The position numbers and the translations under genes were made by a program. From IMG/VR virus record IMGVR_UViG_3300033571_005084, positions 1 to 26,221 of that record: 26,221 nt of DNA; one strand, given 5' to 3'. Positions 3,260-22,350 of this stretch are shown here, one piece after another (the first letter of the stretch is position 1; every line of letters begins with the position of its first letter). This stretch comes from a virus. The notes under the pieces were generated by a model. It worked only from the letters and a program-made list of their open reading frames with translations. It was not told the DNA's origin and searched no databases.

Positions 3260-3604
3260 TCACTTCGTCGTCTGCGCCTCAAGCCCCACGCGGCAGGTGT
3301 CAGCCTTCAGCACGAGACCCGCGCCCCAGTCCTTCAGGGCGTTGATGTATTTGTCGCGGACCAGATCGGCCCATTCCTCAATGATGTATTCGCCAGCGTT
3401 TGGCGCCGGACGCGGATCAGCTTCCGGGAGGGGCATCTCCGCTGGCGTCTCCAGGCAAGCCGCTGGAACGATCAATGACGGTACCGCGGGGGGCGTCGGC
3501 GGGGGCAACGGCTGGGGCTGATAGGAGCGGCCGGGTAGATAGGTCGCGCAGCCAGGCGTCAGGATCGCTAAGCTCAGGGTTAGAAACTTTAGCTCGTTCC
3601 GCAT
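3260..3604 (-). CDS. Rz1: Rz1-like outer-membrane spanin lipoprotein, 114 aa
   Basis: The N-terminus has a short basic start (M-R-N-E-L-K), a hydrophobic core and a lipobox-like L-T-P-G-C with Cys19 as the lipidation site. Residues about 27-45 are strongly proline-rich (P-Q-P-L-P-P-P-T-P-P), the hallmark of Rz1 o-spanins. The start at 3604 is fixed by a GGAGGAG Shine-Dalgarno four to six bases upstream. The longer ORF extension has no signal peptide at its start. The first 188 bases lie inside the 3' end of the i-spanin-like gene in another frame, the classic Rz/Rz1 overlap. O-spanins link to i-spanins across the periplasm and fuse the membranes in the last step of lysis of Gram-negative hosts. 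At 114 residues it is longer than lambda Rz1, and the C-terminal 60 residues look globular. Confidence 0.8.
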   Translation of the reverse strand: MRNELKFLTLSLAILTPGCATYLPGRSYQPQPLPPPTPPAVPSLIVPAACLETPAEMPLPEADPRPAPNAGEYIIEEWADLVRDKYINALKDWGAGLVLKADTCRVGLEAQTTK

Positions 3605-6926: not shown

Positions 6927-8892
6927 GCATTTCGCCGGTCAGCATGACCGCCCCGCCGCCAGCAATTGCCCCGGCCGCTGGCAGCACATTGCCTGCCGCT
7001 GCTTGAGCGGCGATCGCGCCGGCCCCCGTAAGCGTGCCGACGTTTTGCACGGACACGCCCGAGCGACTGGCATTTGCCGCCTTCTCGACGCCACCTTGAA
7101 GGCGCGCCACTTCTGCCAAGTCGTCCAGCGCGTCACGCTGCGCGGTCCCTTTGGGACCAAACAGCACGTCTTTTGCGGCCTCGCTCAATCCGCCTTTTTG
7201 GCCCGACGCGCCGTAATTCTTGGCAAACTGCGTGACGCTAAACGCACCTTCGCCGCCGAGCGCCCCAGCCGTTGGCTTGCCCATATCGTCGATGAGCGTT
7301 GCCGCGACATCACCCCACACGTCTTGCGGAACCGATCGGCGCAGGGCGAGGAGGCTTTCGGCATCTGACCGAGCGCCGGACGTAGCGACGCCCTTGATGC
7401 GTGCATAAAGGTTTTCAGCGGACACGCGGTCGTTCATCACGCCAAAGCGCTGGTCGATCTGCTTAAGGCGCTGCGATCCCGTCCGGTAAAATTGATCGGC
7501 ACGGCGCAAAGCGCGTTCAGCCGCTTCGCCGCCAATCTGGCGGGCGCTTGCCCGAATGTCCTGCGTTAGCGCACCTTCAAGACGTTGAAGGGACGCGTCG
7601 TCCATGCCCTGGCGCAGTTGCGGATTGCGTTGAGCCTCGCGCACCCAGGTTCGCAGCGCGCGAAGATCGGCAAATTTGACCGCCCCTTGATCCGATCTAA
7701 GAGCCGTCATGATGCGGCCGATTTGCGGGTCGTTAACGAGGCCCGCAAGATTGGGAGACGAAACACGCCCCTCAATGTCAGAAAGCGTTTGCAGAGTTCT
7801 CTGCGTCGTGACCGGCGGGCGCATGCCGATGTTTGGTTGCATCAGGCCAGTCGCCGCCTGATCAATTCTTGCGAAGGCTTGGTCATACAGTCGCTTGGAG
7901 CGCGCAGGGAACGACCGTGGATCGTCAACGTTGCGAGCAAAGTTCGCCACGCCCTGCGCAACTTCATCGCCCGCAATCTGAGGTCCGCGCACTTGACCGA
8001 AGAGGCCGGCCACACGTCCGGCCGCCTGCTGTGTATCGTCAAGGCTGTTCTGCAAATTGCGCCGAGCTGAGCCGCCAAGCAGCCAATTTTCCGAAATGCC
8101 CTTCGCCATGCCGCCAGTTTCGGAGCCGGTCATGGCTGCGTAGGTTGGGCGCACGCCGACGCGCTTAAATAGCTTTGCGTTGTTGGCCGGGACGGCAGCT
8201 TTCGCTGTTGGTTGCGCAAGGCGATTAACAAAGGCCTGCATGCCGCTTCCAAAAAGCCCAGATGTGACGATCTGCGGCGCAGCGGCTTGCACGCGTTCCC
8301 CGATGTCGCCTTCTTGCTGAGCAATAGCAAAGGGAGACGTTAGCCCCGCCGTGATTGCGCCGGCTTTGAGGGCACTCATTGGCTTGGCCGCGACAGGAGA
8401 CATGCCCATCGTCTGCGGCCGACCAGCAACAGCAATGCCGCTCGCCGTTGCAAGGGCATTCAAGCCCGGACGCTGCTGGGCATACTGCCGTGCAAGGCCT
8501 TGGCGAACGTCTGCCGCCGCTTGGAACGCATCACCCGGAGAGATGGCTGACGGACGCCCTTGCATGGCGCCAAACGCGTTCTTGCCCGCTTGCGCGAGGA
8601 ACGCGCCCGCGCCTTCGACCTCATCACCGACGCCCAAGTTGTTGAGCACTTGATCCGTGAAGCCGCCGAACGCCCCCCGGCTGTCGAGTTGTTGTCCCAT
8701 GATGGTCGGCCCAACAGTCGACTGGCGGCGCTCTTGATCGACGCGCGCGGCCATGTACCCAGGGCGATCCGCCCTGCGCAACTCTTCTGGCGTCGTATTC
8801 TCGCTTGCAACGTAAGCGTCGATTTCTTCCTCGGGCGCGCCGAGGTCGATCATTTTGGCGACGTTGCGCTTCACGCGGGCAAGGTCGGTCAT
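6727..8892 (-). CDS. Large internal virion/ejection protein, 721 aa
   Basis: This is a long, mostly helical protein rich in Ala, Gln, Arg and Gly, with no cysteines seen. It has hydrophobic Ala/Gly stretches, notably near residues 625-660 (A-G-A-I-A-A-Q-A-A-A-G-N-V-L-P), and a Gln-rich end. Size and place (third and longest of three consecutive genes after the tail-hub group and before the fibre) match the P22 gp7-gp20-gp16 ejection set, whose proteins leave the capsid with the DNA and cross the host envelope. No lysozyme or transglycosylase motif was found. The ATG at 8892 overlaps the previous TGA. Assignment by gene order and composition, not by a diagnostic motif. Confidence 0.78.
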   Translation of the reverse strand: MTDLARVKRNVAKMIDLGAPEEEIDAYVASENTTPEELRRADRPGYMAARVDQERRQSTVGPTIMGQQLDSRGAFGGFTDQVLNNLGVGDEVEGAGAFLAQAGKNAFGAMQGRPSAISPGDAFQAAADVRQGLARQYAQQRPGLNALATASGIAVAGRPQTMGMSPVAAKPMSALKAGAITAGLTSPFAIAQQEGDIGERVQAAAPQIVTSGLFGSGMQAFVNRLAQPTAKAAVPANNAKLFKRVGVRPTYAAMTGSETGGMAKGISENWLLGGSARRNLQNSLDDTQQAAGRVAGLFGQVRGPQIAGDEVAQGVANFARNVDDPRSFPARSKRLYDQAFARIDQAATGLMQPNIGMRPPVTTQRTLQTLSDIEGRVSSPNLAGLVNDPQIGRIMTALRSDQGAVKFADLRALRTWVREAQRNPQLRQGMDDASLQRLEGALTQDIRASARQIGGEAAERALRRADQFYRTGSQRLKQIDQRFGVMNDRVSAENLYARIKGVATSGARSDAESLLALRRSVPQDVWGDVAATLIDDMGKPTAGALGGEGAFSVTQFAKNYGASGQKGGLSEAAKDVLFGPKGTAQRDALDDLAEVARLQGGVEKAANASRSGVSVQNVGTLTGAGAIAAQAAAGNVLPAAGAIAGGGAVMLTGEMLTNPAFVRWLAGAPRAGQTIGGWRAHLAQLGQLAARDPALSTYYSQQVSALLSSPDRPQYTQQQTR

Positions 8893-10028
8893 TCGAGGCC
8901 GTACTTAGCTTTAAGGTTGGGCTGCTGCGACTGAGCGGAGCCGGGGCGCGTCGGCTGCGCGCCGGGCATGGGCTGCCCAAAATCGCGTTGATAAGCCGCC
9001 GCAACGTTAGCCATTGAGTCCTGATATTGCCGCTCAAGCCGATCAAGGTTCTGCCGGAACTGCGCTTCGCTTTGGCTTTGCTTGAGGCTCCCCATAACAG
9101 CTTGCAGCAAGGCCAATTCGCGCTCCGTAACCTGTCCCAGCGCGCCGCCTGTCGGGCTGTTGTCGCGCATGTCTTGCAACTCTTTGAATCCGATGTTGGC
9201 GCCGATCGTGTCGATCAGAGAGGAAAGGTCTGCGGCAGGCGTGCCGCCGACATTGCGAGCAATGTTGCCGATGAAGCCGGTCGTCGTCCCGTCGACAAGC
9301 GCACGAGCCCTCGCGATGTCCTGCGTAACGAGGCTCTGGCGCTGAAACTGCCCCTTAAGCGAACGCCGCACCTTGTCCTGCTTTTCCGCAACAGCCGCGC
9401 CCTTTTGCCCTTGGTCAGCGGCGAAGCGCGCACGGTCGAGGTTCAATTGCGCCTGCTGATACGGTGTAAGCTGTCCCGCTTGTTGCTGGTCGAATTGGAA
9501 CTTGCGCGCGTCAAGATCGAGTCGCGCCAGCGCGATCGGGTCGACCTTTTGCGGCTCCGGGAACTTGCGCCGAAGTGCCATTTCAGGCGCTATCGCAAAC
9601 AAGTCGCGCTCATCTTGCGACATGCCCGCCGTCATGCGGTCCAGCGGCTCCGTTTGCTGCAATCTATCCAGCCCGCCCATCGCGGCGTCGTATTGGCCGC
9701 GCTGCGCCGTGTTCTCGCGGTCGTAAAGGTCATTCAACTGGCCCTGATTGTTCCCGAGCTGCTGGAGCATCGCCCCGATGACCTGCATGCGGTTGAACTC
9801 AGGCCCGTTGTAAGACGGACGCGGCATGCCCTGGACGGATTGCGTCGGCGGCAGAGAAACGCCGACATCTGCGACGTCCAAGCTGACCGGAGCGGACGAG
9901 CCGAACAACCCGCGCGGGCGCGCAAGCGCTGGCATGGGCATTTCTGCTTGTGGCGCGGCCATAGGAAGCGCCGGCATAGCGGGCGCGCTTTGAAGCGGCA
10001 GACGACGACGCGAACCAAACAGGGCCAT
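8889..10028 (-). CDS. Gln-rich probable ejection protein, 379 aa
   Basis: The chosen start, ATG at 10028 (M-A-L-F-G-S-R-R-R), is two bases after the upstream stop. The longer ORF would run through the neighbouring gene with unusual composition. Residues 10-85 are low-complexity Pro/Ala/Met. Residues about 85-200 contain many Gln/Asp/Arg helices (N-N-Q-G-Q-L-N-D-L-Y-D-R-E-N). The rest is a long amphipathic helical region. It is the second of three consecutive probable ejection genes and is followed by an ATGA overlap. No enzymatic motif is present, and the role is inferred from context. Confidence 0.75.
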   Translation of the reverse strand: MALFGSRRRLPLQSAPAMPALPMAAPQAEMPMPALARPRGLFGSSAPVSLDVADVGVSLPPTQSVQGMPRPSYNGPEFNRMQVIGAMLQQLGNNQGQLNDLYDRENTAQRGQYDAAMGGLDRLQQTEPLDRMTAGMSQDERDLFAIAPEMALRRKFPEPQKVDPIALARLDLDARKFQFDQQQAGQLTPYQQAQLNLDRARFAADQGQKGAAVAEKQDKVRRSLKGQFQRQSLVTQDIARARALVDGTTTGFIGNIARNVGGTPAADLSSLIDTIGANIGFKELQDMRDNSPTGGALGQVTERELALLQAVMGSLKQSQSEAQFRQNLDRLERQYQDSMANVAAAYQRDFGQPMPGAQPTRPGSAQSQQPNLKAKYGLE

Positions 10029-10030
10029 GA

Positions 10031-10972
10031 CTACCCCGGCTTCTTGATGTTGCGCAGCATGCCGATCCCCTGCATCAGCGTCCCAGCGCCGCCGAGAAGG
10101 CCCGTGAAGGCGCCAAGCGGGTCGCTCGTCTTGCTCGTGCTCGTGGCGTTCTGATTGGTCGTCTGGCCCGTGAAAAGCTGCGGGTTCGTCTGCCCAAGCA
10201 GCCCGCCCATCGTCGCCAGCCAAGTTGCGCGCTGCAATTCCGGGTTGTTCTGCAATTCGATATCGCGCTGATCCGCGCCCATCTGCCCAAGCAACCCGAT
10301 GTTGGCTCGCTCGTTCTGATCCGCGCCCACGCCCATGTCGAAGAGCGAGCGCGCCGCATTGCTGCGGAAGTTCGCACCCGCCAAATCCTGGCCGCTGTTG
10401 AACTGATCCGCCGCAAACCGGTTGCCAATGTCGAACATCGCGCCCTGACGCGCTTGGTCAAAGCCCTGCGAGCGCAGTTGCGCCAGCAAGCCGGCTTGAC
10501 CACGCGCCGCATCCGCGCCCGCTTGGCCCATCGCCACGCCCTGACGCGAGCCGCCGAACGCGCCCGTAGGCGTTGCCGCCTTCAGTTGATTGAACGTCTG
10601 CCCCAGCGTGTTCTCGTAGTCCGCCATCGACGCGTCGATCACGTCGCGCTGGTACGGGTTCATGTATGGCGACAGGTCCGTGTTGCTGAGCTGTCCCGCC
10701 GTCACGCTTTGCGGCGTGTAGCCGAGCAAGCCCTGCATAGCGCTCGTGCCCTGACCGATCGCCGGATTGCCGCCGAGCGCGCCTGCGCGCTGCCACGCCT
10801 GCCGCTGATTGCTGTTCGCGCCGACGCTGTAGGACGACGGATCGCGGCCAAGCAGGCCTGCAACCTCGCCCGTGTATTGCTGGTACGGCTGCTGAATCCA
10901 TGACGGGACGTTTGGCGTCTGCGTCGTCGTGCTCTGCGTAGTCGTTTTCTGCTTTTTGCTCGATAGGCCCAT
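10031..10972 (-). CDS. Virion/ejection protein with GAFGGSR motif, 313 aa
   Basis: Residues about 100-160 contain Y-M-N-P-Y-Q-R-D-V-I-D followed by T-G-A-F-G-G-S-R-Q-G, a motif widespread in podovirus internal or tail-associated proteins. The N-terminus (S-S-K-K-Q-K-T-T-T-Q-S-T-T-T) is Thr/Gln-rich, as is the region before the C-terminus, which ends in a hydrophobic Gly-rich segment. The start at 10972 overlaps the upstream TAA as TAATG; a longer in-frame extension is rejected. It is the first of the three ejection-like genes, in the place of P22 gene 7 or 14. Confidence 0.78.
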   Translation of the reverse strand: MGLSSKKQKTTTQSTTTQTPNVPSWIQQPYQQYTGEVAGLLGRDPSSYSVGANSNQRQAWQRAGALGGNPAIGQGTSAMQGLLGYTPQSVTAGQLSNTDLSPYMNPYQRDVIDASMADYENTLGQTFNQLKAATPTGAFGGSRQGVAMGQAGADAARGQAGLLAQLRSQGFDQARQGAMFDIGNRFAADQFNSGQDLAGANFRSNAARSLFDMGVGADQNERANIGLLGQMGADQRDIELQNNPELQRATWLATMGGLLGQTNPQLFTGQTTNQNATSTSKTSDPLGAFTGLLGGAGTLMQGIGMLRNIKKPG

Positions 10973-11334
10973 TAGAGCACCTTCCTCAACACCACGGCCG
11001 CCCGATCGTATCCGCGGGGCTTCATGACCCGCTCCCATCCATCTCGCCCCGCCTGAATCACGACTTGTGTGACGCCAACGGATTTTGCCCATGCCTCAAG
11101 CTGCGGCACGCCAACATCGACGATCTCGGTCAGATCGCCCCCAGCCGGGGCCATCTCCATAACAATCTCGCCGGTCTCGGCGCTCCACACGCGCATAAAA
11201 ATGGCGGATTTCTCGCCACGCCAGAGGCCTGCATGCGGGCTTTCTTCCGCCTCGCGTTTAAGCTCATCAACCGTCACGACCGGCCGCGCCTCGCGCGTCA
11301 ACGCCTGCTCAATCAGGCCCCAATGGTCGATCAC
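10972..11334 (-). CDS. Small GNAT-like or virion-associated protein, 120 aa
   Basis: The C-terminal part (L-E-A-W-A-K-S-V-G-V-T-Q-V-V-I-Q-A-G-R-D-G-W, then K-P-R-G-Y) resembles the last strands and helix of small N-acetyltransferase-fold proteins found in podovirus tail clusters, such as the T7 gp13 type. A classical acetyl-CoA loop (Q/R-x-x-G-x-G/A) is not visible, so it may be a non-catalytic member. The GTG start at 11334 overlaps the previous TGA. The assignment is a fold-level guess; the gene itself is well supported. Confidence 0.7.
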   Translation of the reverse strand: MIDHWGLIEQALTREARPVVTVDELKREAEESPHAGLWRGEKSAIFMRVWSAETGEIVMEMAPAGGDLTEIVDVGVPQLEAWAKSVGVTQVVIQAGRDGWERVMKPRGYDRAAVVLRKVL

Positions 11335-11537
11335 AGCCGCCCCAGCTTCTGCGCCACGTAGCGATGCATGCTCGACCGATCCGGGATCAGCACCACGTCA
11401 TCGCCCTCACGCGGCAGGTCGTGCCAATAGTGCCGCTGATAGTCGTCGAGCAGGCGCACGCTCACCTTGTCGTCATGCACGATCGTCGGAATGCCCGCCG
11501 CCTGCCATGCGGCCTCATCAATCGGAATGCGGATCAC
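11331..11537 (-). CDS. Small hypothetical protein, 68 aa
   Basis: The longer ORF starts inside the upstream gene; the GTG at 11537 overlaps that gene's TGA as GTGA, so it is preferred. The protein is compact and charged (V-S-V-R-L-L-D-D-Y-Q-R-H-Y-W-H-D-L-P). No family is recognised. It lies among small genes after the tail-hub gene and probably belongs to virion assembly. Confidence 0.7.
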   Translation of the reverse strand: MIRIPIDEAAWQAAGIPTIVHDDKVSVRLLDDYQRHYWHDLPREGDDVVLIPDRSSMHRYVAQKLGRL

Positions 11538-11740
11538 AGCGCGGTCGTCCCGAGCGTGCCGGTATTGCCGACCGTCAGCACCCAACGCGAGCCGTTCGGC
11601 GCCGTCAGGATGATGCGGCCACGCCCCATCTCAACGTCGTTCCCGCGCTTCAAGTTCTGCGCGTCTTCCTGCTCAAGCTGAAAGCGCGTCTGCTGCTCGT
11701 TGGCGCGGTCATACGCCTGCGGCGCGATCGGCAGCTTCAT
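11534..11740 (-). CDS. Small conserved podovirus-type protein, 68 aa
   Basis: The C-terminal half (G-R-I-I-L-T-A-P-N-G-S-R-W-V-L-T-V-G-N-T-G) with the ending T-L-G-T-T-A-L is a pattern I recognise from small proteins beside podovirus tail-hub genes; their function is not established. The N-terminal half is a charged Gln/Glu helix. The ATG overlaps the tail-hub stop as ATGA. Confidence 0.75.
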   Translation of the reverse strand: MKLPIAPQAYDRANEQQTRFQLEQEDAQNLKRGNDVEMGRGRIILTAPNGSRWVLTVGNTGTLGTTAL

Positions 11741-13221
11741 CGACGCCCGCCTTGGACCACATCAAAGCGCGGCGTGCCAAAGCGCCACGGCACTGTGTTG
11801 ACGCCCTCGACGCGCATCCTGACCTGACGCGCGCTGAACCGCACATCGACCGGGTTGCTCATCGTGAACGGCCCGACCGTCGACTCCAACGCGTTCGGCC
11901 AATCCCGCAGCTTGAATGACACCCGCACATCGCCCTGCGTCTTCTCGTCTGGGATCAGCGTTCGCACCTTCACGACGCGCTCGCCCTCGCCAATCTCAAA
12001 CGGCCCACTCTCGGCAAACGGCGTCACACCCGAATAGCTCGCGCCGGTCTCGTGGTCGTACAGGTTGCCGTCATTCCCGACCGCAATCGGGTTCGTCATC
12101 ACGCCGCGGTCGATCGCGCACAGGCGCACCCATGACGTCATGTCGTGAATGTTCCAATGCCCCTCGCGGATGTTGAACACCACCACCTTGTCGCACTCGG
12201 TCGACGCCTGCGACGGGTAGAACCACCACACCTCAGAGAACGTCGAGTTGATGAACCCCGTGATCTTGCTGCGCTGCGCCGCGTTCAGGTTCGTCTGGAT
12301 TTCATCCCACACGTCGCACGGCATTTGCTGCGTCACGCCGTCAAAGCGATAGAACCCGGCCGGGCTCATCCAATACGCCGCGCTGTCGGCCACCACGCAC
12401 GCGCCGCGCGAGATCGCACCGCAATTGTCGCCCACTTTGTCGAAGCTGTAGACGAGCGGAAGGCGAATGTAGGTCGCCAGATGCACGTCAACATCGGTCC
12501 AGATCAACGTGCCCGACCGCAGCCGCTTGCCGCACATGATCTGCCCAGACGTCTGAAGGTCAAAGTCGCCCGCCTGGTTCGTCGCGGCCGGCGTCCACGT
12601 CGTTTCGGCCTCTTGGTCCGACCACTGAACCCGTCGCCGGTTGCCCGCCGCGCCGAGCGCGAACACGAACCGCTCCGGGCTGACCACAACGCCGACACAG
12701 CTCGTCGGCGCGCCCGTCAGCGCCGCCGCAACGCCGCTCAGTTGCCAATACCAGATGCGCCCATCGGTCGGCATGCAGCCGAGCAGGTTCTGCCCGAACG
12801 TGTCGAGGCTCCACACGTCCGCCTCAAGGATCGTCGCCACGTCAAGCCGCGGCGTGCCGTATGTGCCCACGCCGTAGTTGCCCGTGCCGTACCCGCCCGC
12901 CGTCGTGGCGTCCGCGCGCCCCGTCGTGAAGCCGACCGGCGTAATGTCCGTCATCGTCGTCGCGCTCGACGTCGCCGCATACAGGTTCGTATGCGTGCCC
13001 ACCGCCACGCGCCGCGTGTTGCTGTTGTCGCGCCACGAGATCGCCGCACGCCCCTTGCCGCTGATCGTCGCCGTCGTCCGCGCCGCCCAGCCGCCGATCG
13101 GCTGCATGGTCCCCTCATACCAGCGCATAAGGTTCTGGGCGTACCAACGCCCCTTCGCGCTGCGCTCCGTGCCCCCGTTGCGGTAGAGGCCGGGCGGAAT
13201 GTCGACGCTAACCCAAGTCAT
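11737..13221 (-). CDS. Tail hub / DNA-stabilisation protein, P22 gp10-like, 494 aa
   Basis: The sequence is beta-rich with many aromatic residues, as in six-bladed propeller-like tail hubs. It has the characteristic late segment S-E-V-W-W-F-Y-P-S-Q-A-S-T-E-C-D followed by V-V-V-F-N-I-R-E-G-H-W-N-I, typical of gp10-like packaged-DNA-stabilisation proteins. The length is close to P22 gp10 (472 aa). Gp10 closes the head after packaging and carries the tail fibres or spikes. The start at 13221 (M-T-W-V-S-V-D-I-P-P-G-L) overlaps the adaptor gene's stop as TGATG; the longer upstream reading is antisense-like composition. Confidence 0.87.
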   Translation of the reverse strand: MTWVSVDIPPGLYRNGGTERSAKGRWYAQNLMRWYEGTMQPIGGWAARTTATISGKGRAAISWRDNSNTRRVAVGTHTNLYAATSSATTMTDITPVGFTTGRADATTAGGYGTGNYGVGTYGTPRLDVATILEADVWSLDTFGQNLLGCMPTDGRIWYWQLSGVAAALTGAPTSCVGVVVSPERFVFALGAAGNRRRVQWSDQEAETTWTPAATNQAGDFDLQTSGQIMCGKRLRSGTLIWTDVDVHLATYIRLPLVYSFDKVGDNCGAISRGACVVADSAAYWMSPAGFYRFDGVTQQMPCDVWDEIQTNLNAAQRSKITGFINSTFSEVWWFYPSQASTECDKVVVFNIREGHWNIHDMTSWVRLCAIDRGVMTNPIAVGNDGNLYDHETGASYSGVTPFAESGPFEIGEGERVVKVRTLIPDEKTQGDVRVSFKLRDWPNALESTVGPFTMSNPVDVRFSARQVRMRVEGVNTVPWRFGTPRFDVVQGGRR

Positions 13222-20426: not shown

Positions 20427-20690
20427 TTAGATTTCAGTGTTCGTCGCCAACCCAGCCGCCAACAGCGCTTGCAGCGCGCTCGCTTCGTCGGGAAACACCA
20501 AGAACGCCGTATCCCGCCATGCGCTGCCGTGGTACTCGTCGCCGGCCCACACGACCTGCGGCGTTGCCGGCATGACCTCGTGCGCCTCGAGCGCGGGCGT
20601 CATGCTCGAGCGCGCGACGTTCCAGTGTGAGCCGGCCACGCCGTCGATTGCGATCGGGCCAAGCACGAGGGACGCGTTCGGCAGGATCAT
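20427..20690 (-). CDS. Hypothetical protein, 87 aa
   Basis: This is a soluble small protein with no membrane segment and no recognised motif. Segments such as A-G-S-H-W-N-V-A-R and D-E-Y-H-G-S-A-W-R-D-T-A-F-L-V-F-P give a compact alpha/beta impression. The ATG overlaps the stop of the HExxH lipoprotein gene as ATGA, and the gene ends 17 bases before the small terminase. Co-expression with packaging genes is expected; function unknown. Confidence 0.68.
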   Translation of the reverse strand: MILPNASLVLGPIAIDGVAGSHWNVARSSMTPALEAHEVMPATPQVVWAGDEYHGSAWRDTAFLVFPDEASALQALLAAGLATNTEI

Positions 20691-21046
20691 TTCCGCTCAT
20701 GCTCCCGCGTCCACCCATTCGCATGGGCGAGTTCATGGCAGACAAGCCGCGCGTAGGTCTCGCTGTAGGTGCAAGGGTCGGGCGTGACGATGCGCCAGTC
20801 AGGCCCGGCCACGCCTTCGGGCATTGGCACGGCGCACGACACGTACAGCGGATTGCCGCACTCCTGAGCGACCGCGCCTGCGTGCAGATAGACGACCGGC
20901 GCGGGGCCTTTGAAGCGCTCGGGCGGCGCTTGCACGGCCTGCGTGACCGCGCGTACGGACGTGCAGCCGGACAAGACAAACGCGATGCCGAGCGCAACGA
21001 GGATCACCGCGACGAGCAGGAGCGTGTCGGTCAAAGGGCGGCGCAT
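20687..21046 (-). CDS. Lipoprotein with HExxH zinc-protease-like motif, 119 aa
   Basis: A basic start (M-R-R-P-L), a hydrophobic segment (residues 9-25) and a canonical lipobox L-S-G-C at 25-28 mark a lipoprotein lipidated at Cys28. Near the end lies H-E-L-A-H (104-108) followed by A-N-G-W and H116. This is the zinc-ligand pattern of metallopeptidases, though the third ligand spacing is not that of metzincins. Cysteines 63, 71, 92 and 103 could form disulphides in the periplasm. The start at 21046 overlaps the fibre gene's stop as TGATG. A role in envelope modification, exclusion or lysis is possible; catalysis is not shown. Confidence 0.8.
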   Translation of the reverse strand: MRRPLTDTLLLVAVILVALGIAFVLSGCTSVRAVTQAVQAPPERFKGPAPVVYLHAGAVAQECGNPLYVSCAVPMPEGVAGPDWRIVTPDPCTYSETYARLVCHELAHANGWTREHERK

Positions 21047-22350
21047 CAGGCAGTCGCCCCGGTCAATTCTCCGTCGCTCAGGGCGCGCGGGAGGATGGCG
21101 AGGAGTTGGATGAGGCCGTTGATGAATTGCCCGCCGCCGCCTTGCCCGCCAATTGTCAAACGGGACAGCGTGCCGACCGGGAGCGTGGCTACAGTGTCCG
21201 CCGTACCAAGCGCTCCGTTGCCAGCGCCGCGCACATCGTTCGTGTTGAAGCGCGCTGCCACCCGAAAGCCGGTTGAAGCCCATGTTCCGACCGCGTTTCC
21301 GTTGGTCTGGTTGACGCCGCCCGAATCCATCAGCAACGAAATGCTGCCGCCGTTGTACATCAAAGTGCGATTAGCCGCTGACGTGTCGTCTAGATTGTAG
21401 ACATGCTGGCTGCCGGCCGTTGAGACTTGCCCCGTCAGCGCGATCACCGAATGCGCCCCGCTAAACGTGAGCCCCGTGATGCTCGCCGCATCCGCCCCGC
21501 GCGATGCGCTGGCGGTGGTGGTGGGGATGTAGCTGGACGCGGCGGAGCCGGTTTCGAGTTGCGCGCCCCAGAGGAAGACTCCGCTTCCAGCCGTGCCCGT
21601 GAAGCTGTCGGCGGCCGTGCCGTTTGACGTGAGAAAACCAATGGTGGACGAGCCGCCTGTTGCGTTCGTCGTGAACGTGCAAGCCACGCGAACGTATCCA
21701 CCGGCAAGCAGTGTGACCGTCGTCGTCGTGAATGCGACATAGCCGCCAAGCGTCGTGACCGCGCCGGTCGTCAGGTTAATCTGAACGCCAGTTGATGCCG
21801 CGAACGCACCGCCAAAGGCGATGATCGAAGCAAACGTCCGCTCAGCCGGCGCAAAAAAGATTGACAGCGTGTAAGTCGTGGACGCCGCAAACGTGAACGT
21901 TTGCCTTACGTCATGCGTGCCCGTCGTGGCGGTCTCGACCAGCTTGTCTGCCGTCAGCGTTCCGTCCGGCGCTGTGCCAGCATCCGCCGTAACGGTCGCG
22001 CCGTTCTTGCTCCACGACGCATTGTCAAACGTCTGGCTTTGCAACAGCAGGTTCGTGGCAGCCGCCTCCACCAGCAGCCCCGCAGAGGTCCGCCGCGGGA
22101 CGTTTGGGCCGAATGAGGTCGTGCCGGCGAGGTCGTAGGCCGTGCCGGTGCGGGTGTAGGTGAAGCCGGAGACGCCTGCGATAGTGGACTGCGTGCCGGC
22201 GCGGAATGCGATGTTCTGCGTAAAGTCGAGCACGAGGCCGCTGTTCTGCGCCTCGCTGAGCAGTGTCGCGAGCGCGGCCGAATAGCCTGCCCACGGGCTA
22301 ATTCGCCGGATCGCGCGTCGGCCGAATACGCCGACAGGGACGAGTGGCAC
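21046..22350 (-). CDS. Fibre/spike-like protein with CBM-like beta-sandwich domains, 434 aa
   Basis: Residues about 90-110 (L-L-V-E-A-A-A-T-N-L-L-L-Q-S-Q-T-F-D), then P-D-G-T-L-T-A-D-K-L-V-E, and later F-L-W-G-A-Q-L-E-T-G with S-S-Y-I-P-T-T, form the pattern of a carbohydrate-binding-like beta sandwich found in phage head-spike, fibre and tail proteins. Residues about 300-420 look like a second, LamG-like sandwich (T-F-S-G-A-H-S-V-I-A-L-T-G-Q-V), ending in I-L-P-R-A-L-S-D-G-E-L. The start is a GTG at 22350 without a strong Shine-Dalgarno. It lies before the terminase genes, far from the other tail fibre. It may be a head fibre or a second adhesin. Confidence 0.8.
   Translation of the reverse strand: MPLVPVGVFGRRAIRRISPWAGYSAALATLLSEAQNSGLVLDFTQNIAFRAGTQSTIAGVSGFTYTRTGTAYDLAGTTSFGPNVPRRTSAGLLVEAAATNLLLQSQTFDNASWSKNGATVTADAGTAPDGTLTADKLVETATTGTHDVRQTFTFAASTTYTLSIFFAPAERTFASIIAFGGAFAASTGVQINLTTGAVTTLGGYVAFTTTTVTLLAGGYVRVACTFTTNATGGSSTIGFLTSNGTAADSFTGTAGSGVFLWGAQLETGSAASSYIPTTTASASRGADAASITGLTFSGAHSVIALTGQVSTAGSQHVYNLDDTSAANRTLMYNGGSISLLMDSGGVNQTNGNAVGTWASTGFRVAARFNTNDVRGAGNGALGTADTVATLPVGTLSRLTIGGQGGGGQFINGLIQLLAILPRALSDGELTGATA

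Follow-up and report, generated by a model that had tools for sequence, protein, structure and literature searches.

A small exported HExxH protein family encoded near phage lysis genes, a candidate accessory peptidase of Gram-negative host lysis

The lysis of Gram-negative hosts by phages is usually described with holin, endolysin and spanins. In this study, a further gene was analysed in a 26,221-base virus record, which is itself the window (the whole stretch of DNA that was analysed) and which encodes P22-type portal and coat proteins according to Pfam. The product of this gene, referred to as the HExxH protein, is small, is predicted to be directed to the envelope and has a conserved putative zinc-protease site. 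Because the gene lies among lysis genes in about half of the relatives, it may be an extra and undescribed lysis component in bacteria with an outer membrane.

The nearest functional precedent, likened by description, is the Mtz/Tim system of Listeria. According to PMC8235301, Mtz is a secreted, phage-derived metzincin that is frequently found downstream of the holin-lysin genes in prophages, and Mtz with Tim, a TIMP-like lipoprotein, sensitises cells to lysis. Mtz and the HExxH protein are alike in being phage-borne and secreted, in carrying an HExxH zinc motif and in being encoded by an accessory gene that is frequently located by holin-lysin genes. However, Mtz acts in a Gram-positive host, has a metzincin motif with a Met-turn and has the partner lipoprotein Tim, whereas the HExxH protein is one short protein ending three residues past its third histidine, and its phages also carry Rz/Rz1-like genes.

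Three other groups invite comparison. Rz1-type o-spanins are, like the HExxH protein, small exported lipoproteins of the lysis region in phages of Gram-negative hosts, but the HExxH protein is distinguished from them by a conserved zinc-type site, four conserved cysteines and the presence of separate Rz/Rz1-like genes. The SprT-like, MPTase-PolyVal and DUF3810 families have a similar HExxH helix, but they are not exported mini-domains of such a layout. Chromosomal homologues in Henriciella and Hyphomonas share the domain, a lipobox recognised by eye and, in intact domains, the third histidine; unlike the window protein, they have a long C-terminal tail, and some are tandem proteins with a degenerate first domain. 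The family was not named in the titles and abstract openings found on phage lysis-cassette proteases, spanins and exclusion lipoproteins, and the metalloprotease of PMC10847046 stands outside the lysis cassette.

The HExxH gene and the lysis genes of the window

An earlier note on this DNA had described a 119-residue protein with a lipobox, an HELAH motif and four further cysteines, and this was confirmed on the minus strand; the plus strand at positions 20687-21046 holds an unrelated frame. The residues are L25-S-G-C28, H104-E-L-A-H108, H116 and cysteines 63, 71, 92 and 103 (Table 1). In the window protein, a hydrophobic segment is followed by the lipobox cysteine (LVALGIAFVLSGC), which is the arrangement of a bacterial lipoprotein. 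The gene is placed between a fibre gene and terminase; its start codon shares bases with the stop codon of the fibre ORF upstream, and its own stop codon with the start codon of the following ORF, an 87-aa companion that is conserved in the relative L001 as 89 aa (dN/dS 0.18). The HExxH motif alone is weak evidence, because it occurs in 3 of the 157 six-frame ORFs of at least 60 aa in the window (25,259 residues).

Table 1. Features of the window around the HExxH gene and the candidate spanin genes
Feature	Position	Strand	Basis
Rz-like i-spanin candidate, 333 aa	3417..4418	-	phrog_1327 Rz-like spanin, E 1e-5; membrane segment and coiled coil by eye
Candidate Rz1-like lipoprotein, in a different frame and overlapping the Rz-like gene	3260..3604	-	lipobox by eye; no profile match
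HExxH envelope protein gene	20687..21046	-	119-aa ORF
Lipobox LSGC, predicted lipidated Cys28	20963..20974	-	sequence; Pfam LPAM_1 14.7 bits, under the cut-off of 20
HELAH, with H104 and H108 as predicted zinc ligands and E105 as predicted catalytic Glu	20723..20737	-	invariant in 28/28 aligned members (partly built in by search patterns); last predicted helix
H116, candidate third zinc ligand	20699..20701	-	His 10-14 residues past the first His in 26/27 relatives
C103, probable disulfide to C92 (putative pairing)	20738..20740; C92 20771-20773	-	both invariant in the alignment
C63 and C71	20834..20860 (C63 20858-20860; C71 20834-20836)	-	conserved in 90% or more of the members
Tail/head-spike fibre gene, upstream, TGATG overlap	21046..22350	-	phrog_5939 tail protein, E 2e-45; NF048003 spike fibre domain, E 3e-48
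87-aa companion ORF, joined to the HExxH gene by an ATGA overlap	20427..20690	-	no signal peptide by eye

The window phage has a candidate spanin pair located 16 kb from the HExxH gene. The Rz-like protein of this pair is unusually long, and its profile match begins only at residue 176. No endolysin was found in the window by profile scans of part of the ORFs and a motif scan for three endolysin types. It had also been claimed that the gene does not belong to the known P22 set, and this was supported with regard to the P22 lysis set. Since separate spanin-like genes are present, the HExxH protein is an addition and not a spanin.

Family members, conservation and predicted fold

The window protein had no match above the curated cut-offs of Pfam and NCBIfam and nothing better than E 0.025 in PHROGs. 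Moreover, 17 family members compared with PHROGs and Pfam gave weak matches throughout, the best being to MPTase-PolyVal (E 0.0017), and a profile compared with PDB sequences gave nothing better than E 0.9. As judged from sequence, the protein belongs to a small exported family with no Pfam, PHROGs or NCBIfam model found at the sensitivity used.

Scans of IMG/VR revealed 22 distinct phage relative proteins on 25 contigs, a count that leaves out L084, L088 and the chromosomal copies, and a bacterial genome scan revealed chromosomal copies in Henriciella and Hyphomonas (Hyphomonadaceae). Cellular matches at E 0.001 were obtained in the Henriciella family group (12 of 105 genomes, G073 being a doubtful case) and were rare beyond it: 2 of 385 in the class, 4 of 398 in the phylum and 1 of 3 in the order of G342, each set including genomes already known to match. 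The cultured phages of INPHARED gave no match at E 0.01 or 0.1 in tblastn with the P0002, L029, L032 and L016 proteins; a motif query at E 10 returned seven records, of which the five examined were four long MPTase-PolyVal-like proteins (by eye) and one unrelated short frame (L039). Plasmids queried with the L029 protein returned three weak Streptomyces records (E 5-7).

The mature domains of the window protein and 27 relatives were aligned, L084 being the sole whole-genome locus included. The rows dropped were L004 (a match to the signal region only), L021-L023 (DUF3810-like, with the motif alone in common), L019 (a near-copy of L017) and L033, L065 and L066 (duplicates of L032 and L064). The 22 phage relatives are not independent: at 50% identity, the 28 aligned members form 17 groups. 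Identity of the mature domain to the window protein ranged from 28 to 47% across members, a 93% homologue left aside.

It had been proposed as a test that the histidines and the glutamate should be conserved in homologues; this held for HExxH and, apart from its spacing, for H116 in all members but one. The HExxH motif was kept in all 28 aligned members, which is partly built in by the search patterns. Residues P91, C92, C103, H104, E105, H108 and W112 were invariant in the alignment, and P42, C63, C71 and A99 were nearly so; the C63 and C71 columns are shifted or lost in the L013/L032 group. Most phage members came from searches with patterns that include CHE, which accounts for part of the invariance of C103, H104 and E105. 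The motif was also kept in members found without CHE, namely L064 (pattern PNPCVYP) and L082, L084 and L088 (profile search). Furthermore, a third histidine, which stood in no pattern, followed the first by 10-14 residues in 27 of the 28; its spacing is not fixed, being +12 in 19 of the 27 relatives, +14 in three, +10 in three and +13 in one, and it is absent in L002 alone. In L088, which comes from a genome of the same class, the cysteine of NPC and the cysteine before HE are both replaced and HEAAHSWGWPATH is kept. This joint loss of two cysteines with retention of the motif is what would be expected if the two cysteines are bonded to each other and the function depends on the zinc motif as its core.

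The chromosomal proteins L020 and L083 have tandem domains, the first degenerate with HE lost and the second with the full motif. The combination of an intact second domain with a first domain lacking HE (L020 4383-5492; L083 1423-2272) resembles that in pseudoenzyme-enzyme pairs.

Inspection by eye revealed a signal peptide, a lipobox or an N-terminal anchor in all intact members whose N-termini were inspected. The protein had been called a lipoprotein, and this description holds for the window protein with its lipobox; it does not extend to the family, since by eye an ordinary signal peptide or an N-terminal anchor stands in place of a lipobox in roughly two thirds of the 28 aligned sequences.

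A structural model of the mature domain, built with the 28 sequences, was confident, with a pLDDT of 89.8 (87-90 over five models) and a pTM of 0.78, and the full-length model was moderate (pLDDT 78, pTM 0.54). The mature model has the order strand-helix-strand-strand-helix, with HExxH at model positions 66-70 inside the last helix (60-71); zincins in the broad sense likewise carry HExxH in a helix. The earlier reading gains support from this predicted placement of HExxH in one helix. Foldseek comparison of the mature model with the PDB gave no E below 1, with yeast Cdc73 first and HtpX second, and the full-length model gave a best E of 0.05 against BFVD. A second aligner listed 10 solved structures for the mature model at Z 2.1-3.9, a level that is common according to the tool: YbeY (3.9), the zincin-like 3e11 (3.6), MMP-11 (3.5), 6mdw (3.3) and 2ejq (2.9), in addition to two PrtC entries, HtpX, an acetyltransferase and glyoxalase I. 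The first eight of these ten are HxxxH-type metalloproteins, as judged in part by title. The full-length model gave four weak rows with the same aligner (3e11, 6mdw, 2ejq and collagenase T). These structural matches, each weak, together fit a minimal zincin as far as a predicted model can indicate.

Assignment of the window protein to the metzincins, the gluzincins and three Pfam zincin families was considered and rejected, though it may belong to other zincin families, including ones absent from the aligner's rows. The third histidine of a metzincin lies at +10, whereas that of the window protein lies at +12 (+10 being found just in L060, L071 and L084 among the 27 relatives), and a Met-turn is impossible in a protein that stops three residues past H116. 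A gluzincin would have a conserved glutamate downstream of HExxH, and none was present in the alignment. With regard to SprT-like, MPTase-PolyVal and DUF3810, the window protein scored 13.1 bits against the DUF3810 cut-off of 28, and the other two were absent at E up to 1; in the 17 members searched, weak matches to the three were obtained in one, four and one, with best E values of 0.006, 0.0017 and 0.064, respectively.

Gene neighbourhoods of the relatives

The placement between fibre and terminase genes, which the earlier note had reported, is true of the window and is not a fixed property of the family: lysis genes lie within about 1 kb of the HExxH gene in 12 of the 22 phage relatives, the lysis-linked members forming 8 groups at 50% identity. 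An endolysin gene lies within about 1 kb in 11 of the 22, all matched by Pfam (eight Phage_lysozyme and three Glyco_hydro_108), and the twelfth relative, L036, has an Rz/Rz1-like pair by anatomy and a GH19-like endolysin below the Pfam cut-off. The one-strand order of endolysin, HExxH gene, Rz and Rz1-like lipoprotein is found in nine (L025, L028, L030, L031, L034, L035, L037, L056 and L058); in some of these, small ORFs, about three at most, separate adjacent genes. L028 is from contig IMGVR_UViG_2919617552_000003, whose number suggests that it may be a prophage of an isolate. Moreover, the HExxH gene shares an ATGA overlap with Rz in L025, L031, L056 and L058 and with the endolysin gene in L025 and L028. 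The Rz/Rz1-like genes adjoin on the opposite strand in L060, L033 and L036. Neighbouring genes were called mechanically and many were named by eye; the Rz calls were based on PHROG matches for the window and for 6 of the 10 candidates scanned (E of 0.1 or better), and otherwise on a membrane segment, a coiled coil and a following lipoprotein. Few of the Rz1 candidates were matched by Rz1-like profiles.

Several further small proteins were encountered in these cassettes. In L030 (7036-7293) and L028 (7140-7406, match below the cut-off), the endolysin gene begins within the coding region of a DUF7940-type protein, and DUF7940 may be a holin family because of this overlap. A conserved protein of 97-98 aa with two membrane segments by eye lies between the endolysin and HExxH genes in L034 (7640-7933) and L035 (7529-7825), and the L034 copy had no Pfam match. 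In L026, a 1288-aa protein is encoded on the minus strand (8729-12595) beside holin-like genes and the HExxH gene; neither it nor the holin-like genes had a Pfam match, and a 252-aa neighbour had no PHROG match.

In the remaining 10 of the 22 relatives, the gene lies outside any recognisable lysis cassette. In eight of these (L001, L002, L003, L008, L009, L029, L064 and L071), it adjoins a fibre, terminase, portal or integrase gene, in most cases identified by eye, or has one within about 2 kb; the other two, L007 and L014, had no clearly assignable neighbourhood. L084 and L088 have phage-like surroundings with no recognisable lysis cassette. In addition, the 3' part of the fibre gene, the HExxH gene and the 87-aa ORF are common to the window (20444-21570) and L024 (7480-8603) at 81% DNA identity, and the sole further DNA match at E 1e-5 was a 122-base fibre stretch, with 15.5 of the 22.5 kb of the L024 contig compared. 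Since there is nearly no other DNA match in the stretch compared, the block of fibre, HExxH gene and 87-aa ORF moves as a unit. In L001 and L024, the corresponding block with an 89-aa ORF lies between terminase-like and portal-like genes (by eye).

The chromosomal copies of Henriciella and Hyphomonas lie in clusters unrelated to phage lysis and, by eye, outside phage genes, so lysis is not the sole role of the fold. A NusG-like protein and a phosphoesterase (named by eye) are encoded near the HExxH gene in L016-L018 and L020, and an epimerase and a nucleotide-sugar dehydrogenase (by eye) lie downstream of it in L016 and L018, L017 being different downstream. This neighbourhood suggests a surface polysaccharide locus.

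Proposed function and rival explanations

Taken together, export, the conservation of the zinc-type site and the recurrent linkage with endolysin and Rz genes point to a zinc-dependent peptidase that would act on the envelope late in infection and help lysis. It is therefore proposed, with slightly less than even confidence, that the HExxH protein is an exported zinc-dependent peptidase that aids late disruption of the envelope as an accessory lysis protein. Such a peptidase would be a minimal zincin of about 80 residues held in the periplasm, the window version being lipid-anchored, probably to the outer membrane, and its domain would be stiffened by disulfides. Zinc would be bound via H104, H108 and probably H116, and E105 would serve as the catalytic base. 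The protein would be produced late, together with fibre, packaging or lysis genes, and its substrate would be a protein of the envelope, most likely one by which the outer membrane or the wall is tethered or stiffened. Cleavage of this substrate would let the endolysin and spanins finish lysis faster or more completely. The earlier note had named envelope modification, exclusion of other phages and aid to lysis as possible roles, and aid to lysis has the most support among the three.

The main rival is an envelope moron, that is, an exported zinc peptidase that alters the surface of the host cell, for instance through cleavage of a receptor or transporter, and thereby excludes phages or protects the infected cell, while being merely resident in the late lysis/terminase region. 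The varied position of the gene (in a lysis cassette, beside a fibre gene, after TerL or beside an integrase gene), the phage-like non-lysis surroundings of L084 and L088 and the travel of the fibre 3' part with the HExxH gene and the 87-aa ORF, which links it to a host-specificity gene, speak for this explanation, and lambda bor, which adjoins the lysis genes, is a precedent. However, several relatives have the gene joined by ATGA overlaps to endolysin and Rz genes, which suits a lysis role better, and retention between Rz and two unrelated endolysin types is better suited to lysis than to an independently transcribed moron. The moron explanation is regarded as less probable than the lysis reading.

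A second alternative, considered unlikely and given less weight than the moron, is a protein of lysis or of the envelope that is stabilised by zinc and has no catalytic activity, for instance one that binds a host lysozyme inhibitor or helps the spanins, and in which HExxH merely holds the fold. The very small size of the domain would agree with this, as would a third ligand of variable spacing that is missing in L002 and the persistence of the first tandem domains of L020 and L083 despite the loss of HE. A purely structural site needs no glutamate, however, and that of HExxH is invariant in all 28 members (in part built in by the CHE patterns) and was kept in L064, L084 and L088, which were found without those patterns.

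The possibility that the HExxH protein is itself an Rz1-type outer-membrane spanin was already disfavoured and is very improbable. It is a short lipoprotein with weak PHROG Rz-like matches (E 0.025-0.32), the best covering residues 12-42, i.e. signal and lipobox, and a weaker one reaching residue 62; but distinct Rz-like and Rz1-like genes adjoin it in relatives and exist elsewhere in the window, and most members have no lipobox by eye. Finally, a chance motif in an unremarkable lipoprotein, which the frequency of HExxH among window ORFs might suggest, is refuted by family-wide conservation, by purifying selection between the window protein and its L001 homologue (the closest pair, 93% protein identity; dN/dS 0.13) and by the loss of two cysteines in L088 with the zinc motif kept.

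In conclusion, the reading as an accessory lysis peptidase leads to a broader proposal, put forward more tentatively still: the family may constitute a fifth functional class of Gram-negative phage lysis gene, encoding a minimal exported zinc peptidase, separate from holin, endolysin and the two spanins, whose cleavage of an envelope protein would cause the outer membrane to fail. The gene is kept in the cassette across unrelated endolysins and also travels with fibre genes. An anatomy is now given for a family that these profile collections had not been found to model. If the proposal is true, a conserved envelope peptidase adds a proteolytic step to lysis, and it could point to a host protein whose removal matters.
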